DNA of 64,000 nucleotides from Flavivirga eckloniae (GTDB lineage: Bacteria > Bacteroidota > Bacteroidia > Flavobacteriales > Flavobacteriaceae). Positions 20,907 through 45,302 of the stretch are shown here, in pieces (position 1 is the stretch's first letter; each line of letters opens with the position of its first letter). Below the pieces are notes generated by a model. It was not told the DNA's origin, ran no database searches, and saw nothing but the letters and a program-made list of their open reading frames with translations. The stretch is taken from NCBI RefSeq assembly GCF_002886045.1, contig NZ_CP025791.1:1076001-1140000 (forward strand). Direction: 5' to 3'. A program made the position numbers and the translations under genes.

Positions 20907-20956
20907 TACACTTCGTCGATTTTTTTTGCGTTTCATCGATTTCACCTATACATTTG
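20907..20956 (+). promoter_or_regulatory. Tandem TACACTTCGTCGAT motif with core promoter of the first giant gene
   Basis: TACACTTCGTCGAT at 20907-20920 and the related TGCGTTTCATCGAT at 20927-20940 are 20 bp apart. The core promoter overlaps them: TTTG at 20925-20928, a 20-bp spacer, and TACATTTG at 20949-20956. The start codon is at 21005. Confidence 0.6.
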
Positions 20957-21004
20957 AAACTAAAATTATAACCCTAAAACTATCGTTAACCACTCTTAAA
21001 AAAA

Positions 21005-24000
21005 ATGGTCTCTCACACTAAATCAATAACTTACATATTAAGTTTGCTAATTTCTATTAGTACTTTCTCTCAGGTAATATACTCTGAAGATTTCGAAACA
21101 GACTTCGATGTGGATACAAATGGTTGGACATTATCTAGCCCTACCAGCAATATGAACTGGGAAGGAGGAAATGGAGGAACACCATCTGGAGGAACAGGAC
21201 CTAGTGGAGCTAATACAGGGAGTTATTATGCTTTTGTTGAATCTTCGGGAACCAATGCTTTTTTTAAAGAAGCTATAATGACCAGCCCTTCTATAAACTT
21301 AACAGGATACAATAATCCTACTCTGTCCTTCTACTATCATATGTATGGAAGTAATATGGGGGATTTAAATATTGACATTAACGATGGCGGCGGTTGGACA
21401 ACTCTACTTACTATATCCGGGCAACAACAATTTAGTAATGGAGCTGCCTGGTCTAATACATTGTCTTCTGCCATAGACCTTTCTGCATATACGGGAGATA
21501 CTGTTCAAATAAGATTTCATGGTACCACATCAAACACTGGCGATTATTATCAAAGTGATTTTGCCATTGATGATCTCTTAATAAACGGCACCTTAATTGT
21601 TGGTTCAGAAATGGAAATACAAGGTAACGCGACCAGTATTGTTTCAGGAGACACAACACCTACAAGCGGAGATCATACCGAATTTGGTACTATTGCTAAT
21701 ACAACAACCTTAGATCGTACATTTACCATTCGAAACATAGGCAATTCTATCTTAAATTTAACAGGAGGAACACCATTAGTTAACATTAGTGGCAATGCCG
21801 CTTTTTCCATATTAACACAACCAAGTTCAAACACGATTACTAGTGGAGGAAACCTAACTTTCGTAGTTAGGTTCGCTCCTTCTGCAGTTGGTACTAATTT
21901 ACAGGCCACTATTTCCATTGATAATGATGATAGCGACGAAGATCCTTATACGTTTACGGTTCAAGGTACTTCTGTTATTTTGGCTCCCGAAATAAACATT
22001 CAGGGAAATTCGATCGATATTGCCTCAGGTGATAACACACCTGCTTTTGGTGATGATACAGAATTTGGTGTAACTACCACCTCAACAACAATTGACCACA
22101 CATTTACCATTCAAAATACAGGTACGTCTACCTTAAATTTAACCGGAGGCGCTCCTTTAGTAGATATTAGCGGTAACGCAGCCTTTTCTATTTTAACGCA
22201 ACCAAGTTCCAGTAGTATAACCAGTGGTGGCGATTTAACCTTTGTAGTTAGGTTTGCTCCTACGGTCGTTGGCTCCAATTTACAAGCTACTGTTTCTATT
22301 GACAATGACGATAGCGACGAAAACCCATACACCTTTGTGGTACAGGGCTCTGCTTTACTAAATCATTCACCTGGAGATGTCGACTCCAATTTACAATTAT
22401 GGTTACGTGCAGATCAAGGGATTGCCTTAACGGGAACAGATGTAGACTCTTGGACAGATCAATCTACCAACGGATTTACTGGTGCGTCAGGAGGAAGTGC
22501 AGATGCCGAATACGTTACTTCAGATCTTAACTTTAATCCTATTATAAGGTTTTCTGGTAATTCATTTTATAATTTAGGTAACCCGTCCCAATTAGACTTA
22601 CAACCCAATACAGACGAAATGACCATATTTACTGTGGTAGTTGCAAACGGATCCGGGACTGTATTTGGCAAATCAAATAACTCTACACGTAACTATCAGG
22701 TTTGGTTTGGATCAACAGACCGTGTATTACACAATACACTGGGAAGACAAGGAGGAAATCAAGCAGTGCGTTGGGGAACCATTTATGCATTAAATGAACC
22801 TAAACTTACAACTGGTATTGTTGCAGACACCGGTAACAGCCTTACCAGATTATCTCCATATGTAAATGGAGTGATTGATCCCGCCGATAGAAACGACGGA
22901 ACTTCAACAGGAAGCTCTGTTACAGACGTTCTGGTTGGGGCAAGAAGAAATGGTATTAATACCGGTTCGGGCTTTCGTTTTAATGGAGACATTGCAGAAA
23001 TTATAATGTACGACAGGGACCTTAATGCCACAGAACAACAACAAGTAGAAACCTATCTGGCTATAAAATACGGTATTACCTTAGGCTCTAATGATGCTTA
23101 TTGGGATTCCTCAACAAACACCTCTTCCCCATTTGGGTATGCAGGAACCAGTAATGATTATGTAGCCTCAGATAGCAGTATCATTTGGAATGGCACAACA
23201 AATGCCGGTTTTGGATATAATATTATTGGTGTCGCCAGAGACGACGATTCTAATTTATTACAACAAAGGTCTAAAAGTGTTAGTATTATTCCAGAAGCTA
23301 TTTTAACCATGGAAGCTGAGGCTGGTTCTTTAAATGCCGATTTAAGTTATTTACTAATTGGTAACAATAGCGATAATGTAGCGCTAATCACTACAGGACT
23401 TCCTGTACGATCAACAAATATTTTAGAAAGACGATGGCGTGCCAGAGAAAGTACTAATGATGCCGGAACAGTTACTTTAGAATTCGATTTAAGCACATCT
23501 TCCATTACTGATGCAGAAGCAACCAATTTAGAATTATTAATAGCTGATAATACCAGCTTCAATAATTACAAAAATATAGCAGGTTCTTATAACGCAACTA
23601 CAGATATTTTAACCTTTACAGGTATAAATTTTGAAGACGCAGAATATTTCACCTTAGGTACTACTGAAAGCTACACAAGCAATTACCATTTAAGTTTTAA
23701 TGGTACTACCAGATATGTTGATCTAGGAGACACCAACGATCTAACCGAAAATTTCACGATTTCTGCATGGATTAAAAGTAATGCCAACGGTAGAACCATA
23801 GTTTCCAAAGGAAGCGCTGCGGGCTATGAGTTTACTATTAACAGTTCCGGAAATCTGGTTATGAGTTTTAATTCCGGTACACAAACCGTAACGTCTACCA
23901 ACAATGTGCCTCAAAATGTTTGGCATCATGTTGCTGTAATTTACAACGGGTCAACTACAAAAGTTTATATTGATGGTATAGAAGATGGTACAGCTAATAT

Positions 24001-26257
24001 TAGCACCGATCCGGTTGCCAACTCAGAAAGCTTTTTAATTGGGGCTTCTGGAAGCTCGCCCAGCAACTTCTTTTCTGGAGAAATGGATGAGCTAAGAGTT
24101 TGGAACCGTGCTTTAACCGTAGACCAACTTCGATTTGTTATGAATCAGGAAATTGAAATTTCCGGTGGAAACATATACGGTACAATAATTCCTCAAACCG
24201 TAACAAAACACGAAACCAGTAGTATACCTTTAGCAGATTTAATGGCATACTACCCATTCTCTCAAGTAAGAGGTAATTGCGTGTTAAACGAATCATCAAA
24301 CACAACAGAAAACGGAAGACTTTATAACATACCTACCAGTTCTTTTGAAAGCCAAACTGCCCCCCTACCATTTGTTTCGGATGCTGATACAGACTGGGAT
24401 GTTGCAACAACATGGTTAAACAATGGTGTACAGTACATTCCTAACACGACAATTAATGGAACAGCTGTAGATTGGAATATTGTAGAAATTAATCATAATA
24501 TTTCTGTTGATAGAGATTTAAGTGTTTTAGCTTTAATTTCAAACAATAACGAACTTACTGTAAATGGTGATACGTCATTAAATACAGGACATGGACTAAC
24601 CGTAACGCACTATTTAAAGCTTGATGGTTCTATAGATTTAGAAGGAGAATCCCAACTCATCCAAACTACAGGTAGTGATTTTGATACTACAAGTACCGGT
24701 ACTTTAGAAAGAGACCAACAAGGTACCTCAAACACTTATTTGTACAACTATTGGTCATCGCCCATAGCTCCTACAAGTAATGCTAATTACACCCCGCTAA
24801 GTATATTCAGCAACATTAATTTCTTGGGTTCTGGCTATAATGGTACAGCAGCACCTGTTGCTGTTGCAGATTATTGGATATGGAAATATGCCAATAGAGT
24901 TAGCGACACCTATTCTGCGTGGCAACATGTTAGAAGCACAGGAACAATTTCACCAGGAGAAGGATTCACAATGAAAGGACCTGGGACATTAACCTCAGAT
25001 CAAAATTACGAGTTCTTAGGACAGCCGAATAACGGTGATATAACATTAACCCTAAGTGACGACAACGACTATCTAGTAGGAAATCCCTATCCTTCGGCGA
25101 TTGATGCAGATGCTTTTATTTTAGATCATATTAGTGTTACAGAAGGTGGAAACTACTCAAACCTAACAGAAAATATTATAAATGGCGCGCTCTATTTCTG
25201 GGATCATTTTGCAAATAACACTCATATATTGGCAGCATACCAAGGTGGTTATGCTACTTACACCCTAATGGGAGGTGCAGTTGCCATTTCAAATGACACA
25301 AGAATTAACGCTAGTGGAGCCGCAGGAACCAAACTCCCCGAAAGATACATTCCTGTAGGCCAAGGATTCTTTGTTTCTGCTGTATTAGATCCCGATTTAA
25401 TTGGAGAAGCAAACGACCCCGGAATAACCTTACCCGTTAATGGGGGCACTATTACATTTAGAAATAGTCATCGTGTATTCCAAAGAGAAATTGTTTCCGG
25501 ATCCAATACAGGGTCTCTATTCCTAAAAAATAATTCTAAAGGAAAAGCAGCTACAGCACTTAAAAAAGCAGACCAAAGAAAAAAAATCAGGTTAATGTTT
25601 GACTCTCCAGGTGGTTATCATCGTCAATTACTAGTTGGTGCAGACGAAAAAGCATCCAACGGATTCGATATAGGTTACGATGCACTGCTTATTGAATCGA
25701 ATAACGAAGATATGTACTGGCATATGAATAATTCCAACCTCATTATTCAGGCCGTTAATAATTTTAACGAAGAACAAGTACTCCCTTTAGGTATTAAAAT
25801 AAATACCGAAGGCATCACAACAATAAAAATTGATGAATTGATAAATATCGATAACAGTCAAAATATTTATTTGCACGACAAGGAACTTAACACCTATCAT
25901 AACTTAAAACAAAGTAACTATGAGGTTTATTTAACTCCTGGCGATTACTTAGAACGTTTTGAAATTACATTCTCGAAGAATAATACGCTATTAAATATAG
26001 AGGCTATCGAACATGATGAATTACAAATTTATTATTCCAATGAAAAGAAAAGCCTCATTGTTCACAACCCTATTTTAAAACAAATTAAATCTATAGAAAT
26101 ATACAATATTTTAGGACAGCTTGTTTACAAACTCAATATTGAAACCAACGAAAAATACATAGAACACAAAACACAAGATATTACAACTGGTACATACATT
26201 GTTAAAATGAAAACGGATGCAGAAACCATCTCTAAAAAAGTACTAGTAAAACAATAA
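21005..26257 (+). CDS. Giant modular T9SS surface protein (MAM-like, choice-of-anchor D, LamG)
   Basis: A 1750-residue secreted protein. Order by eye: signal peptide to about residue 23; MAM-like jelly roll (about 26-195); two tandem choice-of-anchor D/ASH-like repeats (about 200-320 and 327-445, nearly identical, each with NDDSDE before the last strand); LamG/ConA-like domain (about 457-690) ending YLAIKYGITLG; a beta-rich linker; a second LamG (about 893-1048, with WHHVAVIYNGSTTKVYIDG); a shared module of about 600 residues (1055-1660); and a C-terminal T9SS type A sorting domain (about 1675-1750, ILGQLVYKLN...GTYIVKMKTD). No catalytic motif is recognised. It probably binds polysaccharide or forms surface structure. 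It is monocistronic, with a shared motif in its promoter and a strong terminator after it. Confidence 0.85.
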   Translation: MVSHTKSITYILSLLISISTFSQVIYSEDFETDFDVDTNGWTLSSPTSNMNWEGGNGGTPSGGTGPSGANTGSYYAFVESSGTNAFFKEAIMTSPSINLTGYNNPTLSFYYHMYGSNMGDLNIDINDGGGWTTLLTISGQQQFSNGAAWSNTLSSAIDLSAYTGDTVQIRFHGTTSNTGDYYQSDFAIDDLLINGTLIVGSEMEIQGNATSIVSGDTTPTSGDHTEFGTIANTTTLDRTFTIRNIGNSILNLTGGTPLVNISGNAAFSILTQPSSNTITSGGNLTFVVRFAPSAVGTNLQATISIDNDDSDEDPYTFTVQGTSVILAPEINIQGNSIDIASGDNTPAFGDDTEFGVTTTSTTIDHTFTIQNTGTSTLNLTGGAPLVDISGNAAFSILTQPSSSSITSGGDLTFVVRFAPTVVGSNLQATVSIDNDDSDENPYTFVVQGSALLNHSPGDVDSNLQLWLRADQGIALTGTDVDSWTDQSTNGFTGASGGSADAEYVTSDLNFNPIIRFSGNSFYNLGNPSQLDLQPNTDEMTIFTVVVANGSGTVFGKSNNSTRNYQVWFGSTDRVLHNTLGRQGGNQAVRWGTIYALNEPKLTTGIVADTGNSLTRLSPYVNGVIDPADRNDGTSTGSSVTDVLVGARRNGINTGSGFRFNGDIAEIIMYDRDLNATEQQQVETYLAIKYGITLGSNDAYWDSSTNTSSPFGYAGTSNDYVASDSSIIWNGTTNAGFGYNIIGVARDDDSNLLQQRSKSVSIIPEAILTMEAEAGSLNADLSYLLIGNNSDNVALITTGLPVRSTNILERRWRARESTNDAGTVTLEFDLSTSSITDAEATNLELLIADNTSFNNYKNIAGSYNATTDILTFTGINFEDAEYFTLGTTESYTSNYHLSFNGTTRYVDLGDTNDLTENFTISAWIKSNANGRTIVSKGSAAGYEFTINSSGNLVMSFNSGTQTVTSTNNVPQNVWHHVAVIYNGSTTKVYIDGIEDGTANISTDPVANSESFLIGASGSSPSNFFSGEMDELRVWNRALTVDQLRFVMNQEIEISGGNIYGTIIPQTVTKHETSSIPLADLMAYYPFSQVRGNCVLNESSNTTENGRLYNIPTSSFESQTAPLPFVSDADTDWDVATTWLNNGVQYIPNTTINGTAVDWNIVEINHNISVDRDLSVLALISNNNELTVNGDTSLNTGHGLTVTHYLKLDGSIDLEGESQLIQTTGSDFDTTSTGTLERDQQGTSNTYLYNYWSSPIAPTSNANYTPLSIFSNINFLGSGYNGTAAPVAVADYWIWKYANRVSDTYSAWQHVRSTGTISPGEGFTMKGPGTLTSDQNYEFLGQPNNGDITLTLSDDNDYLVGNPYPSAIDADAFILDHISVTEGGNYSNLTENIINGALYFWDHFANNTHILAAYQGGYATYTLMGGAVAISNDTRINASGAAGTKLPERYIPVGQGFFVSAVLDPDLIGEANDPGITLPVNGGTITFRNSHRVFQREIVSGSNTGSLFLKNNSKGKAATALKKADQRKKIRLMFDSPGGYHRQLLVGADEKASNGFDIGYDALLIESNNEDMYWHMNNSNLIIQAVNNFNEEQVLPLGIKINTEGITTIKIDELINIDNSQNIYLHDKELNTYHNLKQSNYEVYLTPGDYLERFEITFSKNNTLLNIEAIEHDELQIYYSNEKKSLIVHNPILKQIKSIEIYNILGQLVYKLNIETNEKYIEHKTQDITTGTYIVKMKTDAETISKKVLVKQ

Positions 26258-26349: not shown

Positions 26350-29300
26350 TTATTCTTTTACAACCTTTTCGGTTTTTAGTTTACCATTCGATTTAATTTG
26401 CAACAAATAAATACCCCTATCTAAATGCTCTAATGGTAATGTAAAAGAATGTTCTTTATAATTTTTGTTTAAAATTGTTTTGCCGAGAATATCGTATAAT
26501 GTAACTTCTACATGATCAGTAACACCTTTAATACTAACCTGTAAATGGTCTACAAACGGATTTGGATGTACAACAATAAAACCAGCACGTCGTTCTTGCT
26601 CTCCCAAAGTACCCAAACATGCTGAATCTGATATTTGGGTTGGTGTTAAAACAACATCATTATACACAGTAAATGCATCCATTTTTCCTGTAAAAAAAGC
26701 ATCCGATGCATTTTGAAAACTATCATTTCCACTTAGCTTACCTCCAATACCTCCATAGCTATAATGACTTATTATCGATGCAGGAGCACTATTACTACTA
26801 GCCACCTCAACACCATCAATGTATAATTTTTGAGATGTACTTAGCTCATCGTATACAAATGCGATATGATGCCAATCGCTATCATTAGGGAATGCAGCAC
26901 TTATTTGATCAGCCACACTGGATGTCTCTCTTACTATAGCCTCCAAATTAGAATTATTCAACCTAATAGCTATGCCTCTGTTTTGTCCACCTTCATCAAA
27001 AATATCTTGAATACCCGTTAAAGACGAAGGTTTAATCCATGCCATAACACTTCTGGAATTCGTTATTATATTTAAAAAACTATCTGGCGAAGTAGAATTT
27101 GTGGCATATTGAATAGCCTCAGTACCATTAAATACAACAGATCGATCCCCTTCTTTAAAATCTACATCATCATAAGTAATCGCTCCAGAAGGCGCTACTG
27201 TTGGATCATGATTATTTCCTGATGCATCATCGGCATTACTGGCCAGATCAAAATCCCAAAAAGCTTCATAACCACTAGTGGGTTGACAACCTGCCGTTGA
27301 ATTAGCAATTACCAGACAGGCAGCATCTTCAATTTGTGAAGCAGATAAAGCTGTATTATAAACAGAAAACGCATCCATTTTCCCTGTAAAATAGCTATCT
27401 GCTGAAACAGCAAAACTATCCCAACTGCCAATAACACCTCCAATACCACCTCCAGTAGTATTATGAGATCCAATAGAAGCTGGCGCAGAACTACTTGTGG
27501 CAACTTCTACACCGTCTATATATAGCTTGTGACTTGTATTACCTCCATCATAAACAAAAGCAACATGATGCCAATCGCCATCATTAGGAAATGTAGCAGT
27601 CAAAACATCTGTAATGATTGTTGTTTGCCTTACTACAGATTCTAAATTTGAGCCATTTAAACGCATTGCCATACCTACAGTATTACCGCCCTCATCAAAT
27701 ATGTCCTGAACTCCGGATAAGCTGGTTGGTTTTATCCACGCCGAAACCGTACGCGCTGTGGTCGCTTCGGAAATGAATGTCGCACTGCTATAATTTATAT
27801 CCACCGTACCGTCAAACACTACAGACTGATCCCCTTCTTTAAAATCTACCGTGTCGTACGTTAAAGTACCATTTACAGGATTTGGGTCATGGCCATTCCC
27901 AGAAACATCATTGGCATCGCTCACTGTGTCAAAATCCCAATACGCTTCATAACCACTCACCGCCTGACATCCATCGGATGAGTTAGAACCACCTCCACTA
28001 GTACTTATTATATAAGGTAAATCTACCGTTGCACCACCAACCCGATAAGTTGGTAACGGGGCAGATATATTGATTAAATGATTACGCAAATCAGTACTCA
28101 TATCGTTACCTATTATTAAAGTAGCCTCATCTGGACTTCCAGACAATAAGTTCGTTACTTCACTAATATCATTAATAAGATCGTATAACTCGTACGATTC
28201 AGTTTCATAATTATAAATTAATTTATAATCCCCCTTTCTAATAATAGAAACAGGTCTGGCATCTCGATTTGAATCTATAAGATATCCAGGATAATGCCAA
28301 TACAATGCATCTCTGCTTAACGCAGTTCCGTTGGTTAACATTTGCCAGTGGCTTACACCATCTATTTCGTAACCGCCGCCAGGTAAAGTACCTCCCGCTG
28401 CTTCAACAAAAGTTGGATATATATCAAATCCAATAATAGGTGTCGTATTAATAGTTCCCTTATTTGATAACCATGGAGCCTCAGACCATACAATACTAAC
28501 AGACCTAATACCACCTTCGTACCACTCGCCTTTCATACCCCGTAAAGGTCCAGCATCATCACTATGAACCGCTCCTCCGTTATCTGATATAAAATAAACC
28601 AGAGTATTTTCAGATAGCATATTACCAGGGTTTCTTGGATCTGCAGTCGTTTTTAAGTAATCAATCAATCTACCTATGGTTTGATCCATACCTTCTGCCA
28701 AAGCTGCCTGTCCCGGTTTTCTGTCGTGCCCCATAGAACTTGGGTTGCTAATTGCCTTGTTTTCATATTTGGCTCTTAAATCTGGTCGTGCATCACTTGG
28801 ATTAAACGGACCATGTATTGCAAAGTTGCTAAAGTGCATAAAAAATGGACTATTGATATTTGCATCAATAAAATCCATGGCGGCATCTGCCATGGCATCT
28901 GTAACGTGTTTTGCTGTACCTTCTAAAGAATTATCGCCAGCCAACATTAAAGATTCTGCTGCAGTATATGGCTCCGCATAAGGGTCTAATTCAGGACCAA
29001 TACTACTACCAAAAGTATATGGAACGCCACTATTGGAAGCAAAATAATTACCTGGATTCCCTTTGGTACCTCCTCCATAATTAACATCGAACCCCTGATC
29101 TGTTGCGGCATTATTTGTTACATTCGTAGCTTCATTTTCTCCAACATGATATTTTCCTAAATGCACTGTTTCATAACCTGCTGTTTGCATGGTTTCCGCA
29201 AGGGTTATCGCAGCTACTGGTAGCTCATCTACACCGCTTGGCAAGCCATTATCCGGACCTATAAGTAAAGTTGAATTCCCGCCTCTGTTTAAATTATCGA

Positions 29301-29601: not shown

Positions 29602-29632
29602 AAGATTTGTGGTTAGCAATTAATTATGTTGA

Positions 29633-29675
29633 CAAATATAATAGCATTTAATCGATAAAAAAAGCTTTTTGTCGA
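29633..29675 (-). promoter_or_regulatory. Promoter and inverted TTTRTCGAT motif of the first LamG sulfatase gene
   Basis: On the minus strand TATATTTG (29633-29640) is a full -7 match 31 bp before the ATG. Just upstream, minus-strand TTTATCGAT (29651-29659) and plus-strand TTTGTCGAT (29667-29675) form an imperfect palindrome. The half-site matches the motif seen before the giant genes, but inverted rather than tandem. Confidence 0.5.
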
Positions 29676-29730
29676 TTTATTATTACAAATATTACATTTA
29701 TACTAGTAATAACCCTACATAACAACACAA

Positions 29731-34189: not shown

Positions 34190-34415
34190 GTTTAAAAAAA
34201 GATTGGTTAGTAAGAAAACAATTTAGTGCTTTTTTTTAAAAAAATGTGATTATTCCAACAAAACTAATAAACATTATCCTACTTTATTAACAATTACAAA
34301 TTATTTTAACAGTATAACTAAAAGATTTACAGAGCATTACATATAAGACTTAAAACATAAGAATTACGCTACTCCTACACTCATTTCATAAAATACAAAC
34401 GCAAAAATCAAATAA

Positions 34416-34429
34416 CTCGACGAAATACA
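34416..34429 (-). promoter_or_regulatory. TGTATTTCGTCGAG motif upstream of the second LamG sulfatase
   Basis: Minus-strand match to the TACACTTYRTCGAT motif, 150 bp upstream of the putative -7 box at 34259-34266. The plus strand at 34426 also reads TACACTTTATTTC, so the site overlaps a second copy in the other direction. Confidence 0.35.
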
Positions 34430-34651: not shown

Positions 34652-34701
34652 TGTATTTTGTCGTCTTTTTTTGCATTTCATAGAATTTTGTAGTAAGTTT
34701 G
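34652..34701 (+). promoter_or_regulatory. Tandem motif with core promoter of the second giant gene
   Basis: TGTATTTTGTCGTC (34652-34665) and TGCATTTCATAGAA (34672-34685) are 20 bp apart. The core promoter is TTTG at 34670-34673, a 20-bp spacer, and TAAGTTTG at 34694-34701. Layout and spacing equal those before 21005. Confidence 0.6.
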
Positions 34702-34740
34702 CTTCAAATTATTAGTCCCAAACTAAAATTCTAACCGCTT

Positions 34741-37700
34741 ATGGAAAAGGTTCATACTCTTTCTAAATTTATCCTTATGGGGATATTTTTATGCTTCTGC
34801 TCTAATGCATTTGCACAAGATTTCAAAGTACAACATATACAAGATGATATTGGTAATGGTGGAGGCAGCAATACCAGTTTTACAGCTGTTTCTTCATTAA
34901 ACAATGCCGTCGCTTTAGCCAACAATAATAGAAAAACGCATGGTGGATCGAACGGCGTCACCGCAGCCAGAGAAGGAGACGATATGGCGGGAGGCCGTGT
35001 ATTAACAACCGTAGGAACTCTTACGTACTATCGTGAATCCGGCTCTCAAAACGAAAACACCAGATTTAACACATCTATCTGGGAATATACAGGTGCTCCA
35101 GGCGATGCTAACGAATTTATAGTAAGAGACAGGTATGCTATAGACCTCAACGGAGGCACTTACACAGTAGACCAAACCATCTCTGGAATTATAAATAAAG
35201 ATAACTGTATCCCTTTCATTACAGGGATAATGAACGATTCTGGTACCGATGATGCCGATTCGGCAACAGCGATTGCCTATTTAACATCTGGAACAAACCT
35301 ACGTGTAGAAAAAGGAGGAACCAATACACCTAATGTTAGAGTTTATATTACTTTGGTTGAGTTTACAGGTTCAAATTGGACTGTACTTCATGGTGATTCC
35401 GGCGATTCAGCCAACGATACCGGAACCATTACCCTTAAAGCTATGTCTGATGGTACTGGTACTACAACAGACGTAACTAGTTGGTCCAATGCTATTATAT
35501 TCAGTCAACACAGGGGAGATACTGCTACGGCTGGCGCGAACGATGCAAATTCCGATAACTGGCCTATGACCGATCCCGGAAGCGATACCAGAAGTGTAAA
35601 TTGGACTTTTGATAATTCTCACGATTCAGATGGAACGAATCGCCATTTCGTACATGTACTGAACAATCCCGAAATAGTTGTAACCAGATATAGCGATTCC
35701 TCTACTGCAGGTTCATTTACTATAGATATCACCTCTGCCGGCTTAACAGATTTAAACCAAGCTATGATTGTTGGCTCCACATATCACAGTGGAACAGGAG
35801 CCGGATATGGTAGAGGATGGAGAAATTACAAACTAAACTCTTTAACACAAGCCGAGCATTGGGTACACCGTGCAGGTAGTGGTACCTCTACCTTAGGTAC
35901 TAACATCCAAATTGTTAATTTCGATTATACCACAGCACCCGGAGGTATTACTGCTAACCTTGAATTATGGCTCAAAGCCGATTCTGGAGTCGAAGAAGCT
36001 GTAGGCGATAGTGCTGAAGATGCAGATTCTATATTAAACTGGTTGGATAACACAGATAACAACAACGACGCAACTCAAATAACAGTAGGCAATCAGCCCG
36101 TACTAGACGAAGACGCCATTAACTTTAACCCAACAATTGATTTTGATGGTGACGACCTTTTACAAACTCCTGCTGTAGCCTCTAATTCCGATATGACGGT
36201 ATTTACTGTTGCTGAAGGGGTAAGTGGCGTTCAAAAACAAATATTAAACTTAAACGGTGGCGACAATATTATTGTAGAGTTTGAAGATGCCACACCTACT
36301 TTTAGAGCAAGAATGTATGACGGTGTGGATACAGGAGAAATACAAACCACGACAGCTGTAGCAAATAACGTTAACGTTATTGCAAATTACGATGTATACT
36401 CAGGCAGCAACTCCGAGCTCTTTATTAACGGTACTTCAATTGGTACAGACGCCACAAACACCTATGCCCCAACAAGTCCAATAGCCAATATAGGTGGACA
36501 CCCTTCAAATACAGCAAAAAGATGGGATGGTGGTATAGCAGAAGTTATTATATATACCGGATCTATAACAAATGCCGAAAGAGACAAGATTGAATCTTAC
36601 TTAGCTATTAAGTATGGCGTTACATTGGGTGCTAATGGTACATCCCAAGACTATGTAGATTCAGATGGACGTGTTATCTGGGATCAATCCGCTAATGTCG
36701 GGTATAACTATAATGTTTCTGGTATAGGTCAGGACAATAGCTCCAGATTAAATCAAAAACAATCCAAATCGATTAACGCTACAGACGATATTACAGTAGG
36801 TATAAAAGGCATAAGTACAACAAACAAAGGCAACTCCAATACTTTTATGGCCGATAAAACCTTTTTAATGTGGGGGCACGACAATGGTTCCACATCATCT
36901 GCCACCGATATTATCAAAGACTTTAGTGCTGGTACCACGGTTACCAGTAGCGCTAGTGTTACGCCAATTACCAGAAAATGGAAAATGGTAGTTACAGATT
37001 CTATACCTACTATAAAACTTTCTATTCCCGAATCCATGGTATCGGGTACCAATGCCGGTGGAGAAGATTATGTGATGATCGTTGCAGACGACGAATCTTT
37101 TACAACCAACGTAACATCTGCCACTATGGAAGATGTGGGTACAGAATTAGAAGTTGACTTTTATTTTGAAGGTACAAAATACATCACTTTTGGCTCTGCG
37201 CCAGAAGTCGCTCTTGGCGACCGTTCAGCATATTTTGGAAATTATACAACTACCGATACCTATTTAGATGCCGGTGATGTAAACGACTTAGATAATACAG
37301 ATTTCACCATTAGCGCCTGGGTAAAACGTGATGCTGGTGAAAACAAATTCGATATTGTCTCCAAAAGGAATTATTTCCATGAAGCACCGGGACCTCCTTC
37401 CGAAACTTATACGCACGGCTATGCGTTTAGAATAAACTCGACCAGTCAGTTTAGAATGGTATGGAGAGATCCCAACGATAGTGCTAACAATGTGATGCAA
37501 ACCTCAGCGACTATACCAGAAAACGAATGGCATCATATTGCAGCAACTTACGATTCTGGAACCAATATGGTAAGCTTATATATTGATGGTTATTTAGAAG
37601 ATAGCGATGATACTTTAGACCCAATCAATACACCATCAGATTCCCACTTTTTAATAGGTGCTGCGCATCATATAAAAAGACAGCAAAAAATGAGAGGTAG

Positions 37701-39885
37701 TGTAGACGAAGTACGTGTATGGAATGTTGCGCTTTCTGGCGATCAGATCAGATATATCATGAATCAGGAAATTGAGAACAATTCCAATTTTGCAGACGGT
37801 AAAATTTTACCAACTGCTACTACCAAAAATGAAATAAATCCCATTCCGTGGAGTAATTTAATTGCCTATTACCCCATGAGTAATATCGTATTTGGTTGTG
37901 TAAAAGATGAATCCAATAGCGGTAACGATGCCTCAATGATACGATATGACGACCTAGACGAACAAACTGCACCACTACCATATAAAACAACACAAAATGG
38001 TGATTGGGATACCTCAACCACATGGGAAAATGGCGATGTGCAATATCTCCCTGGGGTGGATTCTTACTTAGATGCATTAGAAACCATCGATTATAATATT
38101 GTACAAATCGACCATAACATAACTATGGACAACTCAGACACATCCCTTATTCCAGCTACCAGAAATGGAAACAGAACCGTACTGGGCTTAATGGTTAATA
38201 GTGGTGGTGAATTAGAATTAGCTGGGAACACATCTACCAACACCGGGTATAGTATTACAGTATCCCATTATTTAAAACTAGATGGTAAAATTGATCTTGA
38301 GGGTGAGTCGCAACTTATACAAACAACAAATAGCGACCTGGATGTTACAAGTTCCGGGGTATTGGAACGAGACCAGCAAGGCACTAAAGATTTATACACT
38401 TATAATTATTGGTGTTCGCCAGTAGGTGTTAGTAACACCTCCACCAATAACAATAGCTATAGGCTTAGTGATAATATTTTAAAAAACGGAACGATAGCCT
38501 CTACACCAAATAATATAACATTTTTAACCTCTTCGTTCGATGGTAGCGTTTCTGGTAACGACATTAGTATAGCGGACTATTGGATTTGGAAATATGCCAA
38601 CAATACAAGCGACACCTATTCCTTATGGCAACATGTAAGAAGCAATGGATTGATTAATGCCGGGGAAGGATTTATAATGAAAGGTGTAGAAACTTCCGGA
38701 AGCTCCTTTACATCCACTCAAAACTATGTTTTTGATGGAAAACCCAACAATGGCGACATTACCTTAACCCTTAATGCTGGTAATGATTACTTAGTTGGAA
38801 ACCCGTACCCATCTGCTATTGATGCTGATGAATTTATTTTAGACAACGTTAGCGATGGTGCCGGTAGAGCAGGCAGTAATATTATAAACGGAACTCTATA
38901 TTTCTGGGACCATTTTGCTGTTAATTCCCATATACTTACCGATTATCAAGGCGGGTATGCCACTTACACGTTACTGGGTACCGCTGTAGCCATAAGCAAT
39001 GATACAAGAATTGATGCAACTGGCGCAGTTGGTTCTAAAACTCCGGGACAGTATATTCCAATAGCCCAGGGCTTTTTTGTAATTGCAGATACAGGCGGTA
39101 CGATCACGTTTAAAAACAGTCAACGTGTTTTTCAAACTGAAGGTTCAGCCTCGTCCCTATTCCTAAAATCAGATCAAAAAAAGAGCAAGACCAGTAAAAC
39201 AACTACAGACCAGAGAGAAAAGATAAAATTAATGTTCGATTCACCTCAAGGTTACCACCGTCAATTATTAGTTGGTGTAGACGAAAACACCTCTAATGCT
39301 TTCGATATCGGTTACGATGCGCCTTTAATTGAAGATAATATGGAAGACATGTACTGGATTAATGACAACGAACATATGATTATTCAGGCTGTAAACAACT
39401 TTGGACAAGACCAAAAATTACCTTTAGGCATAAAAATTGGTCATGCCGGTATAGCTTCTATAAAAATTGATAGCTTGGAAAACATAGACAATACACTCAA
39501 CATTGTGTTACATGATAAGGAACTGGATATACATCACAACCTTAAAGATGGGGCTTACGAAGTGTATTTAGCACAAGGTAGTTATCACGATAGGTTTGAG
39601 GTGCTGTTCTCGAATGCATCATTGTCTAATACCCATAAAGAAGAGCTCAACCTACAAGTGGCATATTCAAAAGAAAAAAATAGTTTAATCGTACACAACC
39701 CAAACACAGTACGCATTAACACGATTACAATCTATACAACCCTAGGTAAAAAGGTGTTAGCCCTAGCTAGTAACACAAATATAAAATACATTGAAAATCA
39801 ACTTAAACCATTTTCCTCAGGAATTTATATTGTAAATATTAATACAGACAGCACATCATTTTCAAAAAAAATACGCATACCGTAA
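34741..39885 (+). CDS. Giant modular T9SS surface protein with unknown N-terminal domain
   Basis: A 1714-residue secreted protein. The signal peptide ends near SNAFAQ (residue 25). Residues about 26-400 form a beta-rich, Gly/Thr/Asp-rich domain that I do not recognise and that the three other giants lack. Then: LamG/ConA-like (about 404-633, LELWLKADSG ... YLAIKYGVTLG), a linker, LamG (about 826-1010, WHHIAATYDSGTNMVSLYIDG), the shared module of about 600 residues (1016-1630; SQLIQTT, DYWIWKYAN, LVGNPYPSAIDAD, IPIAQGFFV, GYHRQLLVG) and a T9SS sorting domain (about 1636-1714). Function is unknown; binding or surface structure is likely. It has its own promoter and terminator and is divergent from the LamG sulfatase at 29789. 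Confidence 0.83.
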   Translation: MEKVHTLSKFILMGIFLCFCSNAFAQDFKVQHIQDDIGNGGGSNTSFTAVSSLNNAVALANNNRKTHGGSNGVTAAREGDDMAGGRVLTTVGTLTYYRESGSQNENTRFNTSIWEYTGAPGDANEFIVRDRYAIDLNGGTYTVDQTISGIINKDNCIPFITGIMNDSGTDDADSATAIAYLTSGTNLRVEKGGTNTPNVRVYITLVEFTGSNWTVLHGDSGDSANDTGTITLKAMSDGTGTTTDVTSWSNAIIFSQHRGDTATAGANDANSDNWPMTDPGSDTRSVNWTFDNSHDSDGTNRHFVHVLNNPEIVVTRYSDSSTAGSFTIDITSAGLTDLNQAMIVGSTYHSGTGAGYGRGWRNYKLNSLTQAEHWVHRAGSGTSTLGTNIQIVNFDYTTAPGGITANLELWLKADSGVEEAVGDSAEDADSILNWLDNTDNNNDATQITVGNQPVLDEDAINFNPTIDFDGDDLLQTPAVASNSDMTVFTVAEGVSGVQKQILNLNGGDNIIVEFEDATPTFRARMYDGVDTGEIQTTTAVANNVNVIANYDVYSGSNSELFINGTSIGTDATNTYAPTSPIANIGGHPSNTAKRWDGGIAEVIIYTGSITNAERDKIESYLAIKYGVTLGANGTSQDYVDSDGRVIWDQSANVGYNYNVSGIGQDNSSRLNQKQSKSINATDDITVGIKGISTTNKGNSNTFMADKTFLMWGHDNGSTSSATDIIKDFSAGTTVTSSASVTPITRKWKMVVTDSIPTIKLSIPESMVSGTNAGGEDYVMIVADDESFTTNVTSATMEDVGTELEVDFYFEGTKYITFGSAPEVALGDRSAYFGNYTTTDTYLDAGDVNDLDNTDFTISAWVKRDAGENKFDIVSKRNYFHEAPGPPSETYTHGYAFRINSTSQFRMVWRDPNDSANNVMQTSATIPENEWHHIAATYDSGTNMVSLYIDGYLEDSDDTLDPINTPSDSHFLIGAAHHIKRQQKMRGSVDEVRVWNVALSGDQIRYIMNQEIENNSNFADGKILPTATTKNEINPIPWSNLIAYYPMSNIVFGCVKDESNSGNDASMIRYDDLDEQTAPLPYKTTQNGDWDTSTTWENGDVQYLPGVDSYLDALETIDYNIVQIDHNITMDNSDTSLIPATRNGNRTVLGLMVNSGGELELAGNTSTNTGYSITVSHYLKLDGKIDLEGESQLIQTTNSDLDVTSSGVLERDQQGTKDLYTYNYWCSPVGVSNTSTNNNSYRLSDNILKNGTIASTPNNITFLTSSFDGSVSGNDISIADYWIWKYANNTSDTYSLWQHVRSNGLINAGEGFIMKGVETSGSSFTSTQNYVFDGKPNNGDITLTLNAGNDYLVGNPYPSAIDADEFILDNVSDGAGRAGSNIINGTLYFWDHFAVNSHILTDYQGGYATYTLLGTAVAISNDTRIDATGAVGSKTPGQYIPIAQGFFVIADTGGTITFKNSQRVFQTEGSASSLFLKSDQKKSKTSKTTTDQREKIKLMFDSPQGYHRQLLVGVDENTSNAFDIGYDAPLIEDNMEDMYWINDNEHMIIQAVNNFGQDQKLPLGIKIGHAGIASIKIDSLENIDNTLNIVLHDKELDIHHNLKDGAYEVYLAQGSYHDRFEVLFSNASLSNTHKEELNLQVAYSKEKNSLIVHNPNTVRINTITIYTTLGKKVLALASNTNIKYIENQLKPFSSGIYIVNINTDSTSFSKKIRIP

Positions 39886-39910
39886 TTCTAGCACATTGAA
39901 AATGAGGAGA

Positions 39911-39987: not shown

Positions 39988-40047
39988 TACACTTCATCGT
40001 GTTTTTAACACTCATGTTCATACATATGGTAATAAAAATTATATTTG
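39988..40047 (+). promoter_or_regulatory. TACACTTCATCGTG motif and promoter of the third giant gene
   Basis: TACACTTCATCGTG at 39988-40001 is followed by a weaker partial copy (ACACTCATG, from about 40008). TATATTTG at 40040-40047 is a full -7 match 48 bp before the ATG; the -33 element is weak (TTCA). Confidence 0.55.
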
Positions 40048-40094: not shown

Positions 40095-43000
40095 ATGAAC
40101 ACAAACTATTTCAGCTACCAACTGTTATTGGTGCTGGCGTTATTACTCTTTTATAACGCACATTCACAAACAATTGCCACTTACAATTTTGAAACCGGCC
40201 TGCAAGGCTGGTCCGACGGTGGCTACGACTCCGGCGTAAACTACGATAATATTTATGCCAGTGGCGGAACCCGATCGATCTATTCAAAAGACAACGACAC
40301 CAACCAAAACTACACCACCTCCCCCGTTTTAAATCTATCAACTTACAGTTCGATAGATTTTTCTTTTTCATTCATAGGGCATCAAAGACTTGATATTGGA
40401 GAAGGCTTCTCGTTACAGTACTATAATGGTACCAGTTGGTCTACCATTAAAACCTATGCCTTGGGAACCGATTTTGTTTCAGTTAACCGTATTTACACAT
40501 TTTACCACACTATTAGTACCGGACTTTCTGCGAATTCCCAATTCAGATTTACCAGTACAACCAGTGATGATAATGAATATTGTTACTTTGATGATGTATT
40601 AATAAAGGTTTCAGAACCAGAAATTGACGTAACCGGTAACGGCCTAATCATTTCGAATGGAGACATAACGCCATCCGACTCAGATCATACGGCTTACGGT
40701 ACTTCAAATTTTGGTTCTTCAGCAATCAGAACATTTACTATTTATAATAAAGGTGGAACAGATTTAACGATTTCGGATATTAGTCTATCCAATACAACCG
40801 ATTTTTCTATAATAGCACCATTCTATACATCACCAGTAATACCATCAACAGGAAGTACAACATTTACAGTACAATTTAATGCCCCTACTATGGGCTTAAA
40901 AACAACCACTGTAACCATTACCAGCAACGATTCCGATGAAGCCTCTTTTCAATTTGATATTCAAGCACGTTCCGAACAAAACTTCTTCGATAGCGATAAC
41001 GACGGTGTATTGGACAATATTGATATAGACGACGACAACGACGGTATCCCCGATTTAGATGAAGAATCAACATGTAGTACTTCCTCTGTTGGGATTACTA
41101 CAAACTATAAATATCTAAATGAGACTTTTGGACAAGGAGACCGAACAACAATTAACACTACCTACGACACCGATACTCGATATTGTTATGAAAACGGATT
41201 CTATGGTACTAGTGAAGTGACCTGTCCAGATTTAAACGATCGCGATTTAAACGATGGGGAATATGTCGTTTATTACAGAACAGGAGATGGCGACGGTATA
41301 AACGATACTCCAGATGGTGAGATTGCCGGTTGGGCAGACGGATATTGGTATCTAGGTGAAGACCACACTCCTGGAGATACAAAAGGAAGAATGGCTATGT
41401 TTAATGCCTCGTTCGAACCTGGAACCTTCTATACGGCAACCATTGTAGGTGCCTTACCAAACGTACCTATTACGTACAGTTTTTGGGTTCTAAATTTAGA
41501 TACCGCAACGTCTCCGGGTATTGAAAACAAACTCAGACCTAATATATTGGTAGAATTTAGAGATGCAAACGAAAACCTTCTAACCTCTATAACAACAGGA
41601 GATATTCCGCCATCGGTTAATGGCGACCCAGATGCCAGCTGGCATAATTTTACAGCAAGTGTAACTTTTAACGTTAGTGAGTTTAAAGTGTATTTTATTA
41701 ATAACGAAATAGGTGGCTTAGGAAACGACCTTGCCTTGGACGACATTGTTATTTCACAAACATTGTGCGATACAGATGGTGATGGTGTAGCCAATATTTA
41801 CGACTTAGACTCAGATAACGATGGTATTCCGGATGTTGTTGAAAATGGCTTAGGGAATTACAGCGAAGGAAATGCAACACTAACTAACAGCAGCAGTTGG
41901 GTAGATAGCAACAATAATGGTATGCTCGATTTTAGCGAAGGACGTACTATACCAGACTCAGACGGCGACGGCACCCCTAATCATTTAGACTTAGACTCCG
42001 ATAATGATGCTATTTTTGATGTCGATGAGTCCGGTGCCGGAAATACCGCAAATATCGCATACCAAAACGGAGACGGAGATATTAACGGAGACGGTGTTGG
42101 AGATGGTACAGATACAGATGCTGTTAGAGAAACGGACATTGACTCTGATGGTTCCATAGAGCTTTACCCCGATGGTATATTAGATTCATACGATTTCTTT
42201 AACGGGAGTACATATGCAACAGCATACGGCAATTCCAACCAAGGAGCTGCGGGTCCAGGATGGAAAGATTATGTGGTAGACACCGACAACGATAACATAC
42301 CCGATTACCTCGACGTAACCTCAAATGGTGCAACTTTCGATATTTCCAACACCCTGTACGCTAATTTAGATGCAAATAGCGATGGAATAATTGATGACAC
42401 TAATGATACTGATGGCGACGGAATTGTTGATCTGTTCGATACAAACGATGCTTCTTTTGGTTCTCCCAGAGATATAAGCGGAAATTTGCAACTATTCTTT
42501 GATGGTAGAAATGATTACGCCGCAGAAAGTACCGTTATTAATCGCTGGGGCGAAACCACTATAATGACTTGGATTAAAATTGACCCAGCTGCCGCTGGCA
42601 TGCAAACTATAGTTGGACAAGATGTATTTTATTTACGCCTTAACGCCGATAAAAGTATTACGGCATTAGCAGGAGGAAACTCTATAACCAATGGCACACC
42701 ATTAAACATCAATCAATGGGTTCATGTAACAGCTACCTACAGCAATATGAACAACCTTTTCAGCCTGTACATAAATGGTACATTAGTTTCCAGTCAAACC
42801 ATTTATGGTCCTTTAACCGGAGATAGCTCAAGTTTTACCATTGGAAGACACCCCGATACAAATAGCAACTATTTCCATGGATACATAGACGAAGTAAGGG
42901 TTTTTAACAAAGCACTAACCGAAAACGAAATTAAAAAAATGGTATATCAGGAAATCTACAACAACAGAGGTATTATTAGAGGCGCCATTATTCCTTTAAA

Positions 43001-45014
43001 CATTACAGATTATGTAGATTCCTCAACTTCAACACCACTTAACTGGAGTTACTTACAACGATACTATAAGTTAGACACGTACAAAGACGATATTATAGAT
43101 GATTTAACAACCCCAGATACAGATGTTGACTCAGGTGCCAGAATCTACAATTCAAAAATTATCACCAAGCAAACCGCCCCGCTACCCTATGTTACAAAAG
43201 TAGATTGTAACGGTAATTGGTCCGATTCCAGTAACTGGGAAAATGGTGATTTTTGGGATATAAACAGTAATACTCCAGATTGTGCCATTGTTCGAGTACG
43301 AGGACATTTGAAAACCAATTCCAACCAATCTAACGTCGGACTAATTGTTGATACAGATAGCTCACTAAAAGTCAACGGCGATTCCGGATTATTCAATTCC
43401 TGGTATTTAAAATTAGATGGTACTATCGATTTAGAAGGAGAATCTCAATTAATTCAAAACGAAGGCAGTATACTGGATGTTACCAGTTCTGGAAGGTTGG
43501 AGAGAGATCAACAAGGTACTAAAGATCTCTATACCTATAACTATTGGTCTTCCCCTGTAAGCGTAATGAGTCCTAGTTCTAATAATAAAAGTTACAGGTT
43601 AATTGACAATATTTTAAAGAATGGGACAAACGCTTCTACACCAACCGAAATAAATTTTACGCAATCTACTTTCGATGGTAGTGTTTCCGGGAGTGATATT
43701 ACCATAGCAGATCATTGGATTTGGAAATATGCCAATAAACCTAACGACACCTATTCGGAGTGGCAACAAGTTAGAAGTTACGGATTAATCCATGTTGGAG
43801 AAGGCTTTACAATGAAAGGTGTTGAACACTCAGAATCTTCGTATAACTCAACCCAAAACTATGTTTTTGACGGAAAACCTAATAACGGAAATATAAGACT
43901 ACCAATAGGCGCCGGAAATGACTATTTAGTTGGTAACCCTTATCCGTCTGCACTAGATGCCAACGAGTTTATTCTCGACAACATAAGAGATGGAGCTGGA
44001 AGAGCTTCTAGCAATATTATTAATGGCTCCTTATACTTTTGGGATCACTTTGCTGTTAATAGCCATATACTAAGAGAGTATCAAGGAGGCTATGCCGCAT
44101 ATTCATTAATGGGATCGGTGGTTGCCATAAGCAATGATGAAAGGATAGATGCTACTGGCAAATTAGGGACTAAAGTTCCGGAACGATACATTCCCGTAGC
44201 ACAAGGGTTTTACCTAATTGCAGACCAAGGCGGAATCATTACTTTTAAAAACAGCCAAAGAGTCTTCCAAAAACAAAGTTCTGGGGCTTCGGTTTTTATT
44301 AAATCAACCTCAAAAGTCAACAAGAATATAGATGATAGACAAAAGATTCAATTAATGTTCGATTCGCCTAACGGATATCACCGTCAATTGTTGGTAGGAG
44401 CAGATAATAATACTACCAATAACTTCGATATTGGTTACGATGCCCCATTAATAGAAGACGGAAAAGAAGATATGTATTGGATTATTGATGACCGCCAAAT
44501 GGTTATTCAGGCCGTAAATAACTTTAATCACGATCAACAATTACCCTTAGGAATTAAAACCAATGGAACAGGAATTATAAATATAAAAATTGATTCTCTA
44601 AATAATATTGATGACGATTTAGATGTCTTTTTACATGACAAAAAATTAGACACTTATCATAATCTCATAAACGGTGACTATCAAACCTACTTAGAAAAAG
44701 GGACGTATAACGATAGGTTTGAAATTGTATTTTCGAATACGGTACTATCTAAAAATGATATAGAAACGCAAGATGTACTGCAAGTGTATTATTCCAAAGA
44801 AAAGCATAGTTTAATTATACACAATCCCAAAAGTATAACCGTTGAATCTATTGAAATTTTCACAACCCTAGGGCAAAAGTTACTTTCAAAAAGTAAAAAC
44901 ACAAATAAAAAATTTATTGAAGAGAATAGCTTAAAACAAACCATGACCGGTATTTATATTGTTAATATAAATACAGAAAACGGAGTACAATCAAAAAAGA
45001 TACTTATGCACTAA
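40095..45014 (+). CDS. Giant modular T9SS surface protein with calcium-binding TSP3 repeats
   Basis: A 1639-residue secreted protein. Signal peptide to about 24; MAM-like domain (25-175); choice-of-anchor D-like domain (about 172-292); a first thrombospondin-type-3 stretch (about 295-325, DSDNDGVLDNIDIDDDNDG) with DxDxDG calcium loops; a beta domain of about 230 residues with four Cys near its start (to about 554, ending DDIVIS); a long second TSP3 region (about 555-795); LamG (about 797-953, WVHVTATYSNMNN...LYING); the shared module (about 953-1560); and a T9SS sorting domain (about 1565-1639). Calcium would rigidify the TSP3 stalk, so it reads as an extended surface arm with binding domains. 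It is a tandem paralog of the next gene. No catalytic motif is seen. Confidence 0.83.
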   Translation: MNTNYFSYQLLLVLALLLFYNAHSQTIATYNFETGLQGWSDGGYDSGVNYDNIYASGGTRSIYSKDNDTNQNYTTSPVLNLSTYSSIDFSFSFIGHQRLDIGEGFSLQYYNGTSWSTIKTYALGTDFVSVNRIYTFYHTISTGLSANSQFRFTSTTSDDNEYCYFDDVLIKVSEPEIDVTGNGLIISNGDITPSDSDHTAYGTSNFGSSAIRTFTIYNKGGTDLTISDISLSNTTDFSIIAPFYTSPVIPSTGSTTFTVQFNAPTMGLKTTTVTITSNDSDEASFQFDIQARSEQNFFDSDNDGVLDNIDIDDDNDGIPDLDEESTCSTSSVGITTNYKYLNETFGQGDRTTINTTYDTDTRYCYENGFYGTSEVTCPDLNDRDLNDGEYVVYYRTGDGDGINDTPDGEIAGWADGYWYLGEDHTPGDTKGRMAMFNASFEPGTFYTATIVGALPNVPITYSFWVLNLDTATSPGIENKLRPNILVEFRDANENLLTSITTGDIPPSVNGDPDASWHNFTASVTFNVSEFKVYFINNEIGGLGNDLALDDIVISQTLCDTDGDGVANIYDLDSDNDGIPDVVENGLGNYSEGNATLTNSSSWVDSNNNGMLDFSEGRTIPDSDGDGTPNHLDLDSDNDAIFDVDESGAGNTANIAYQNGDGDINGDGVGDGTDTDAVRETDIDSDGSIELYPDGILDSYDFFNGSTYATAYGNSNQGAAGPGWKDYVVDTDNDNIPDYLDVTSNGATFDISNTLYANLDANSDGIIDDTNDTDGDGIVDLFDTNDASFGSPRDISGNLQLFFDGRNDYAAESTVINRWGETTIMTWIKIDPAAAGMQTIVGQDVFYLRLNADKSITALAGGNSITNGTPLNINQWVHVTATYSNMNNLFSLYINGTLVSSQTIYGPLTGDSSSFTIGRHPDTNSNYFHGYIDEVRVFNKALTENEIKKMVYQEIYNNRGIIRGAIIPLNITDYVDSSTSTPLNWSYLQRYYKLDTYKDDIIDDLTTPDTDVDSGARIYNSKIITKQTAPLPYVTKVDCNGNWSDSSNWENGDFWDINSNTPDCAIVRVRGHLKTNSNQSNVGLIVDTDSSLKVNGDSGLFNSWYLKLDGTIDLEGESQLIQNEGSILDVTSSGRLERDQQGTKDLYTYNYWSSPVSVMSPSSNNKSYRLIDNILKNGTNASTPTEINFTQSTFDGSVSGSDITIADHWIWKYANKPNDTYSEWQQVRSYGLIHVGEGFTMKGVEHSESSYNSTQNYVFDGKPNNGNIRLPIGAGNDYLVGNPYPSALDANEFILDNIRDGAGRASSNIINGSLYFWDHFAVNSHILREYQGGYAAYSLMGSVVAISNDERIDATGKLGTKVPERYIPVAQGFYLIADQGGIITFKNSQRVFQKQSSGASVFIKSTSKVNKNIDDRQKIQLMFDSPNGYHRQLLVGADNNTTNNFDIGYDAPLIEDGKEDMYWIIDDRQMVIQAVNNFNHDQQLPLGIKTNGTGIINIKIDSLNNIDDDLDVFLHDKKLDTYHNLINGDYQTYLEKGTYNDRFEIVFSNTVLSKNDIETQDVLQVYYSKEKHSLIIHNPKSITVESIEIFTTLGQKLLSKSKNTNKKFIEENSLKQTMTGIYIVNINTENGVQSKKILMH

Positions 45015-45144: not shown

Positions 45145-45145
45145 T

Positions 45146-45198
45146 AAAAAGAAGCTTAGATCTGAGTTAAAACTCAAAATTTAAGCTTCTTTTTTTTG
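45146..45198 (+). terminator. Terminator after the third giant gene
   Basis: AAAAAGAAGCTTA and TAAGCTTCTTTTT arms with an inner GAGTT/AACTC stem, and a T run at the end. Confidence 0.8.
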
Positions 45199-45240
45199 CT
45201 CACGACACACGAGCCAAAAGATGTCATTTGTTCAAAAAAC

Positions 45241-45302
45241 TACACTTTGTCGATTTTTTTATACATTTCGTCGTATTTTTATAAAATAAAAATGTATATT
45301 TA
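45241..45302 (+). promoter_or_regulatory. Tandem motif and promoter of the fourth giant gene
   Basis: TACACTTTGTCGAT (45241-45254) and TACATTTCGTCGTA (45262-45275) are 21 bp apart. TATATTTA at 45295-45302 is a near-match to the -7 box, with no clear -33. The leader up to the ATG shares TTAGTCCCAAACTAAA with that of the gene at 34741. Confidence 0.6.

Follow-up and report, generated by a model that had tools for sequence, protein, structure and literature searches.

In Porphyromonas gingivalis, genes of the type IX secretion system (T9SS) are controlled at the level of transcription by PorXY-SigP, as described in parts of PMC5005315. LytTR regulators recognize directly repeated sites of 9 bp separated by 11-13 bp, which gives a period of 20-22 bp (parts of PMC6193735). 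In the literature surveyed, mostly titles and the beginnings of abstracts, there is no account of a LytTR regulator, or of the motif described here, controlling T9SS or gliding genes. The subject of this report is a direct repeat in a 64,000-nucleotide stretch of Flavivirga eckloniae DNA (the window: bases 1,076,001-1,140,000 of a 5.67-Mb one-contig genome). The window holds a block of four giant genes (1633-1750 aa) with LamG domains and Por_Secre tails, together with two LamG sulfatases that also have Por_Secre tails and an AraC gene; to the left of the giants lies a fucose-type catabolic region. On comparison of sequences, the repeat is a real, old control site. It stands before most of the giants and before gldKLMN, the T9SS motor operon (NCBIfam equivalogs GldK, GldL, GldM and GldN), and the factor that reads it is most likely a LytTR response regulator (60108-60803) encoded about 15 kb past the end of the stretch first noted (20907-45302).

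A direct repeat before giant LamG genes and gldK

The element consists of a 13-15 bp unit, TRCNYTTYRTCGAT, repeated in direct orientation with a period of 20 or 21 bp (Table 1). It was scored with a position weight matrix (PWM) built solely from sites beyond the window, the gldK sites not included, and each window pair was set against 300 dinucleotide shuffles; for giants 1, 2 and 4 and the sulfatase 1 region, no shuffle scored as high (p=0.003, the floor of the test). A sequence-only reading of this DNA had placed tandem copies before all four giants. At giants 1, 2 and 4 the proposed units were recovered with their periods; giant 3 has one good unit, its supposed second copy fails the PWM, and no pair was found within 250 bp before giant 3 or sulfatase 2. 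By eye, the giant 3 -7 box sits at the position expected from a 21/31 arrangement (period and distance to the -7 box). The sites had been likened to TACACTTYRTCGAT, to which the unit at 34652 (TGTATTTTGTCGTC) is not close; it matches the broader unit instead. What had been taken for inverted sites at 29651-29675 is better read as a plus-strand direct repeat, upstream of sulfatase 1 yet reversed relative to it, and the minus-strand half-site noted at 34416-34429 near sulfatase 2 is present as a single unit only. The proposal of one activator binding two helical turns holds insofar as the site fronts most giants. Its extension to the whole block is not supported: in the 250 bp upstream of the AraC gene, the fucose-type catabolic operon, the GH2 gene, both GH29 genes and the third sulfatase, the PWM finds no pair.

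Table 1. Positions of the sites and genes discussed (window coordinates, except own-genome sites, which are given in genome coordinates)
Feature	Position	Strand	Details
Giant 1 tandem site	20907..20941	+	units 20907-20921 and 20927-20941, period 20; 33.8 bits
Giant 1 -33 TTTG	20925-20928	+	overlapped by unit 2
Giant 1 -7 box TACATTTG	20949..20956	+	22 bp from unit 2
Giant 2 tandem site	34652..34686	+	units 34652 and 34672, period 20; 25.4 bits
Giant 2 core elements	34670-34673; 34694-34701	+	-33 TTTG; -7 TAAGTTTG
Giant 3 single unit	39988..40002	+	no pair by PWM
Giant 3 -7 box TATATTTG	40040-40047	+	
Giant 4 tandem site	45241..45276	+	units 45241 and 45262, period 21; 29.2 bits
Giant 4 -7-like TATATTTA	45295-45302	+	33 bp from unit 2
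Sulfatase 1 tandem site	29643..29677	+	units 29643 and 29663, period 20; 33.3 bits, p=0.003
Sulfatase 2 single unit TGTATTTCGTCGAGT	34415..34429	-	weak; about 227 bp from gene; no pair by PWM
LytTR regulator promoter pair	60026..60061	+	13.2 bits, weak; block conserved across genera
LytTR promoter -7-like TACTATTG	60068-60075	+	21 bp from pair
AraC-type protein	19605-20483		AraC-type helix-turn-helix and cupin; 292 aa
Giant 1	21005..26257	+	MAM, Ig-like, LamG, Por_Secre tail; C-terminal match to RemZ/RemA
LamG sulfatase 1	26350..29619	-	Por_Secre tail
Giant 2	34741..39885	+	LamG; Por_Secre tail 25.5 bits, slightly under the Pfam cut-off of 27
Giant 3	40095..45014	+	LamG; Por_Secre tail 21.6 bits (under the Pfam cut-off), 28.5 bits in genome search
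Giant 4	45369..50270	+	residues 1048-1630 match RemZ 576-1111 (E 2e-35)
LytTR response regulator	60108..60803	+	receiver and LytTR domains; proposed motif reader
Own-genome site	1630116		before fifth LamG giant
Own-genome site	2638388		before LamG/Por_Secre protein
Own-genome site	2300533		before CHU_C-tailed protein
Own-genome site	5461721		before CHU_C-tailed protein, operon with PorP/SprF
Own-genome site	1403867		before EF-hand/TSP3 giant
Own-genome site	1436408		before FIST/PAS-kinase operon
Own-genome site	1552784		before TPR hybrid kinase
Own-genome site	3443120		before Hpt-receiver-glycosyltransferase operon
Own-genome site	37346		before histidine phosphatase

The spacing is kept well beyond this genome. 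The comparison covered 73 loci round giant homologs in other Flavobacteriaceae (1.135 Mb); these loci are related to one another, and counts drawn from them ignore kinship. When pairs of at least 24 bits were collected at all periods from 15 to 44, 50 fell at 20 and 17 at 21, with 3 at 30 and at most one at any other, so that 67 of the 73 pairs have a period within the 20-22 bp range of LytTR sites. All 67 lie on the giants' strand and 58 are within 300 bp of the next open reading frame (ORF) start. Among giant homologs whose match starts in the first 28 residues (32 of the 73 loci), 20 have a pair of at least 16 bits within 450 bp.

The promoters show a fixed phase to the repeat. The TTTG-N20-TAnnTTTG cores of giants 1 and 2 (20925-20956 and 34670-34701) have identical geometry, as had been noted, and both follow exactly the 20/22 arrangement. 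The distance from unit 2 to TAnnTTTG is 21-23 bp in 28 of the 67 relatives' pairs and 31-33 bp in another 10 (shuffled control: mean 0.14 for each offset, maxima 3 and 2 in 2000 shuffles), the period-20 pairs mostly with an offset of 22 and the period-21 pairs mostly with 31-33. Giant 4 and a site at 1595607 have, by eye, the longer offset, and in 43 of the 67 the beginning of unit 2 shares bases with TTTG. An activator in contact with polymerase at -33 would be laid out in this way, the longer offset being a variant shifted by one turn of the helix, although activation itself is read from the arrangement. An extracytoplasmic function (ECF) sigma promoter of the SigP type was considered and rejected on the same overlap and phasing counts.

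Conservation across genera together with this fixed phase argues for an activator-type site rather than merely copied promoter DNA. The giants are paralogs (proteins 36-66% identical), and their promoters could have been copied with them to leave a motif that is now functionless. Outside the motif, however, their upstream DNA aligns no better than the best of 200 shuffles, except for giants 3 and 4 (32 against 31), while motif, spacing and -7 phase are kept over many genera. Because the flanking DNA is at shuffle level and the motif also stands before unrelated genes, gldK among them, plain copying is insufficient and we give it almost no credence as the whole story.

At gldK the units are reversed. 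Two to three of them precede the gene in 12 of 12 genomes of the genus, this one included, and in five further genera. In the sample (30 loci returned of 39 genomes with a match), 17 loci have pairs of 17.6-29.8 bits and the other 13 reach at most 7.3 bits.

The motif also occurs genome-wide, so the idea that it was specific to the block was not upheld. A pattern search of this genome gave 34 pairs with at most two mismatches, of which 29 are intergenic (25 of 27 outside the window and 4 of 4 within it), 2 overlap ORFs and 3 were not fetched; in 400 kb of control stretches, 17.1% of bases lie outside ORFs of at least 100 aa, under a slightly different ORF rule. The RC of the first unit was free to vary under the search pattern; 14 of 24 pairs outside the window retain it (p=8.8e-10 with fixed base frequencies; the 24 are what is left of the 34 rows once the 4 window rows, 3 rows without fetched sequence and 3 that begin with the second unit of another row are removed). 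Twenty stretches of the same genome, making up the 400 kb, hold no pair of at least 24 bits at any period; they were hand-picked at roughly stepped positions, and the 34 known sites all lie elsewhere, so this zero is partly by choice and a weak control. The own-genome sites stand in either orientation to their genes, and several further ones, before uncharacterised genes or between convergent genes, may be false. Three-unit arrays with steps of 20-21 bp were seen at 37346-37394, 1552784-1552832, 1630116-1630162, 2061470-2061516 and 2070997-2071044 in this genome, which suggests that more than two protomers could line up.

As a general mark of T9SS cargo the motif was rejected: 6 of 119 cargo rows have a pair of at least 24 bits (7 at 20 or more), against none of 298 control genes. 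The six rows are five genes, since row 1105798 is the giant 2 site seen from the divergent sulfatase 2, and three of the five are the window's paralogous giants; the cargo list is incomplete in that sulfatase 1 is absent from it. Were the 27 places of at least 24 bits (a lower bound) spread evenly over this genome, 0.43 rows would be expected, with P(>=5) of 8e-5. The genome-wide scan finds sites that are neither random nor limited to duplicated promoters.

Candidate readers of the repeat

AraC-type activators, AraC itself for example, bind direct repeats about 21 bp apart, and the AraC-type protein encoded beside giant 1, with its AraC-type helix-turn-helix and cupin domains, was the reader first proposed for the block. 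Its distribution led to its rejection. Only 2 of 11 congeners have an ortholog of at least 71% identity (elsewhere the best match is 49%, and all others, at most 42%, are at paralog level), whereas the gldK site is present in 11 of 11. A pair is lacking both from the promoter of the AraC-type gene and from the sugar operon beside it, and the protein does not appear among the 30 largest protein clusters of the relatives' loci, though the giants there keep the motif. That this protein activates the block is now very improbable.

A linked regulator with receiver and LytTR domains is a better candidate. First, it shares a conserved neighbourhood with the giants: in the relatives' flanks, clustered by protein, the giants adjoin hisS, ribosomal S6-S18-L9, a response regulator and priA, and 26 of the 73 loci (flanks of at most 6 kb) contain the LytTR regulator at 91.8-99.6% identity, 3 of them as partial copies. 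Second, its conservation follows the gldK site. In 12 of 12 genus genomes the protein has the same sequence (100% identity), with 14-73 of 693 nt differing between pairs of genes and no amino acid change, and it is 92-98% identical in the five further genera with a gldK site, where its identity exceeds that of L9, S6 and PriA in all five and of S18 in four. In five genera that have the same locus and no gldK site it falls to 62-65%, while its neighbours L9, S18, S6 and PriA fall much less; in the remaining genomes without the site it is at most 53% identical or not found at E 1e-30. Residues D55, T80 and K100 are kept in the 11 orthologs compared. This co-distribution is strong but unreplicated evidence, compared for two regulators, the LytTR protein and the AraC-type protein.

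Third, the LytTR regulator probably also regulates itself, to judge from the repeat in its own promoter. There, two units 20-21 bp apart are followed, about 21 bp from unit 2, by a -7-like TACTATTG or TAGTATTG in 43 of 48 loci (by eye). The five exceptions are the genera at 62-65%, one of which (G023) has a 14.9-bit unit 22 bp before TATCATTG. The block is near-invariant by column count in 25 loci chosen by the authors and aligned on the -7 string. No pair of at least 12 bits was found in 20 other regulator promoters or that of the AraC-type protein, gene starts being partly estimated.

A different regulator could read the motif, be it one of the other LytTR paralogs or an AraC-type regulator (either a large AraC protein or a hybrid two-component system, HTCS). 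HTH_18 matches number 64 in this genome, which also encodes 7 more LytTR regulators at E<=1e-30, and the 13-15 bp conserved unit is closer to HTCS sites than to the 9-bp LytTR half-sites; in Bacteroides, HTCS sites are direct repeats averaging 21 bp, for example two 14-bp sites with a 6-bp spacer (parts of PMC3878776). The absence of a pair from the 20 other regulator promoters speaks against such a reader within limits, as only 20 were sampled and autoregulation is not a requirement for HTCSs. Typically an HTCS controls a single polysaccharide locus nearby, whereas the motif fronts gldKLMN and scattered genes. On balance a different reader is rather unlikely, though it deserves to be taken seriously. 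Two other kinds of site were tried and set aside: SusR-like sites are direct repeats with centres 67 or 77 bp apart, against a period here of 20 or 21 (scanned up to 44 bp), and PhoP of Riemerella, another member of the Flavobacteriaceae, has a different motif, TTTAACA, and no gldK target in the passages of its description at hand.

Several observations weigh against the LytTR regulator as reader or against a wide role for the site. The co-distribution amounts to one step on the tree and not to many independent events. The regulator's own pair scores below the 20-24 bits used elsewhere, and pairs of at least 12 bits occur at 0.02 per kb in the hand-picked 400 kb. Similarity to published LytTR half-sites was tried as support and was non-significant, 13% of column-permuted units being as good, and HTCS sites share the 21-bp geometry (PMC3878776, in the parts concerned). 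The reversed units at gldK and sulfatase 1 are not explained by a strict class-II model. Pairs of at least 24 bits are missing from 113 of 119 cargo rows, and 12 of 32 giant homologs lack a pair of at least 16 bits within 450 bp. Finally, raw pattern counts in this genome are equal to or lower than those of a reversed-pattern control (with two mismatches, 15 against 15 at period 21; with three, 89 against 141 at period 21 and 52 against 94 at period 20); such counts were therefore rejected as proof, and the size of the regulon is uncertain.

The giant proteins and their surroundings

The closest relatives of the window giants in the named collection searched are from Flavobacteriaceae such as Flavivirga. 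Giants 1 and 4 were compared with PDB sequences using phmmer: the RemZ match of giant 4 extends to RemA as well, and the C-terminal end of giant 1 matches both. Both giants combine a type A T9SS tail with a sequence match to RemA/RemZ. No fucanase is among the PDB matches listed, the best being RemZ/RemA, and a fucanase identity was rejected for these two. By sequence, we read the giants as surface adhesins of the RemA/RemZ kind that bear LamG domains. For the LytTR regulator, the only PDB match listed that reaches the LytTR part is ComE (4cbv).

A possible hairpin in the 5' untranslated region, its loop reading YCCCAAA, is found in most giant leaders, in the majority of cases 9-15 nt upstream of the start codon. 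Its form is TTTAG-YCCCAAA-CTAAA, with stem variants GATAG/CTATC and AATAG/CTATT, and in the window it lies at 34712-34726 (giant 2) and 45341-45357 (giant 4). Of 102 giant-like ORFs that have 100 bp of upstream sequence, 79 show NCCC[ACT]AN within 60 nt of an ATG. In 47 distinct 17-mers taken regardless of pairing, the stem pairs at 162 of 235 positions; re-dealt arms gave 128.8 +/- 6.3 with a maximum of 153 (2000 draws, counts ignoring kinship). Rfam has no match in the giant 2 promoter, and the element is nearly absent from other T9SS cargo starts (2 of 114).

Inverted repeats with T-runs, resembling terminators by eye, lie behind giants 2 and 3 at 39885-39945 and 45140-45195; they are consistent with a separate transcription unit for each giant. 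A giant beside hisS, as at 45369-63300, is a conserved arrangement, and the hisS cluster is present in 57 of 74 sequences (the window and the 73 relatives' loci). Besides its LamG domains, sulfatase 1 has a Pfam Toxin_R_bind_N match at residues 828-942 (E 8.7e-9), which probably reflects merely a common lectin-like fold.

A proposed switch and its relation to known systems

In the mechanism we propose, the repeat would be an activator site for promoters of the TTTG/TAnnTTTG type, that of the primary sigma factor. Two protomers, arranged head to tail, would each bind a unit, with two turns of the helix from one unit to the next; the proximal protomer would sit on the -33 element or a turn higher. 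Together they would recruit RNA polymerase to the promoters of the giant T9SS adhesins, which bear LamG domains and are RemA/RemZ-like. gldKLMN, some other adhesin-like genes and phosphorelay genes (hybrid kinases, Hpt and a histidine phosphatase) are also preceded by the site, whichever way round; as motor and cargo genes share it, both could be switched together. The motif, its spacing, its phase to the promoter, its conservation, the co-distribution and the synteny are observed; we infer that the site activates, that the LytTR response regulator, which probably regulates itself, is its reader, and that phosphorylation would control this regulator. The explanation as a whole, with the LytTR protein as reader, seems to us somewhat probable. 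If that explanation is right, a T9SS and gliding regulon could be defined for a large marine group, and the joint expression of large surface adhesins and their export motor would be explained. A bolder version makes this regulator, unchanged in amino acid sequence across a genus, the master switch for a large clade of Flavobacteriaceae, where a single promoter architecture (20/22 or 21/32) would tie gldKLMN to the giant LamG adhesins and to the regulator's phosphorelay, and where the conserved RNA hairpin of the adhesin leaders would add a post-transcriptional layer; this could equally turn out right or wrong. The site is an old element of activator type common to RemA/RemZ-like adhesin genes and the T9SS motor operon, with the LytTR response regulator as its probable reader, rather than a switch of a fucoidan block that the AraC-type protein would read; what the sequence-only reading had seen was mostly right, and its interpretation half right.

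Compared with the HTCS sites of Bacteroides, the repeat is alike in being a direct repeat, of for example 14- or 16-bp sites there, at a mean distance of 21 bp (parts of PMC3878776). It differs in that its targets are not one polysaccharide utilization locus and in that the linked regulator is a LytTR protein; no HTCS gene was found linked to the target locus, and the only HTH_18 match in the window is the 292-aa AraC-type protein, which is not of HTCS size. HdrR/BrsR-type LytTR promoters are alike in having a LytTR regulator, direct repeats of period 20-22 beside the -35 region and autoregulation, which is probable for the regulator here (parts of PMC6193735). The units here are longer and not significantly like the published half-sites, the proximal unit overlaps -33 where theirs lies, in the same parts of that account, about 10 bp above -35, and the putative targets here are T9SS motor and adhesin genes. 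For the giants themselves, the nearest described proteins are RemA and RemZ of Flavobacterium johnsoniae: giants 1 and 4 match RemZ (8gl8) and RemA (8gl6) and have type A T9SS tails. Unlike these, the giants bear LamG domains, with MAM and Ig-like domains too in giant 1, and any role in gliding is putative. With PorXY-SigP the proposed switch would share the tie between transcription of T9SS core genes and a two-component system (parts of PMC5005315), but an ECF sigma factor acts there, according to the same parts, whereas here TTTG/TAnnTTTG elements are combined with an activator-type direct repeat.

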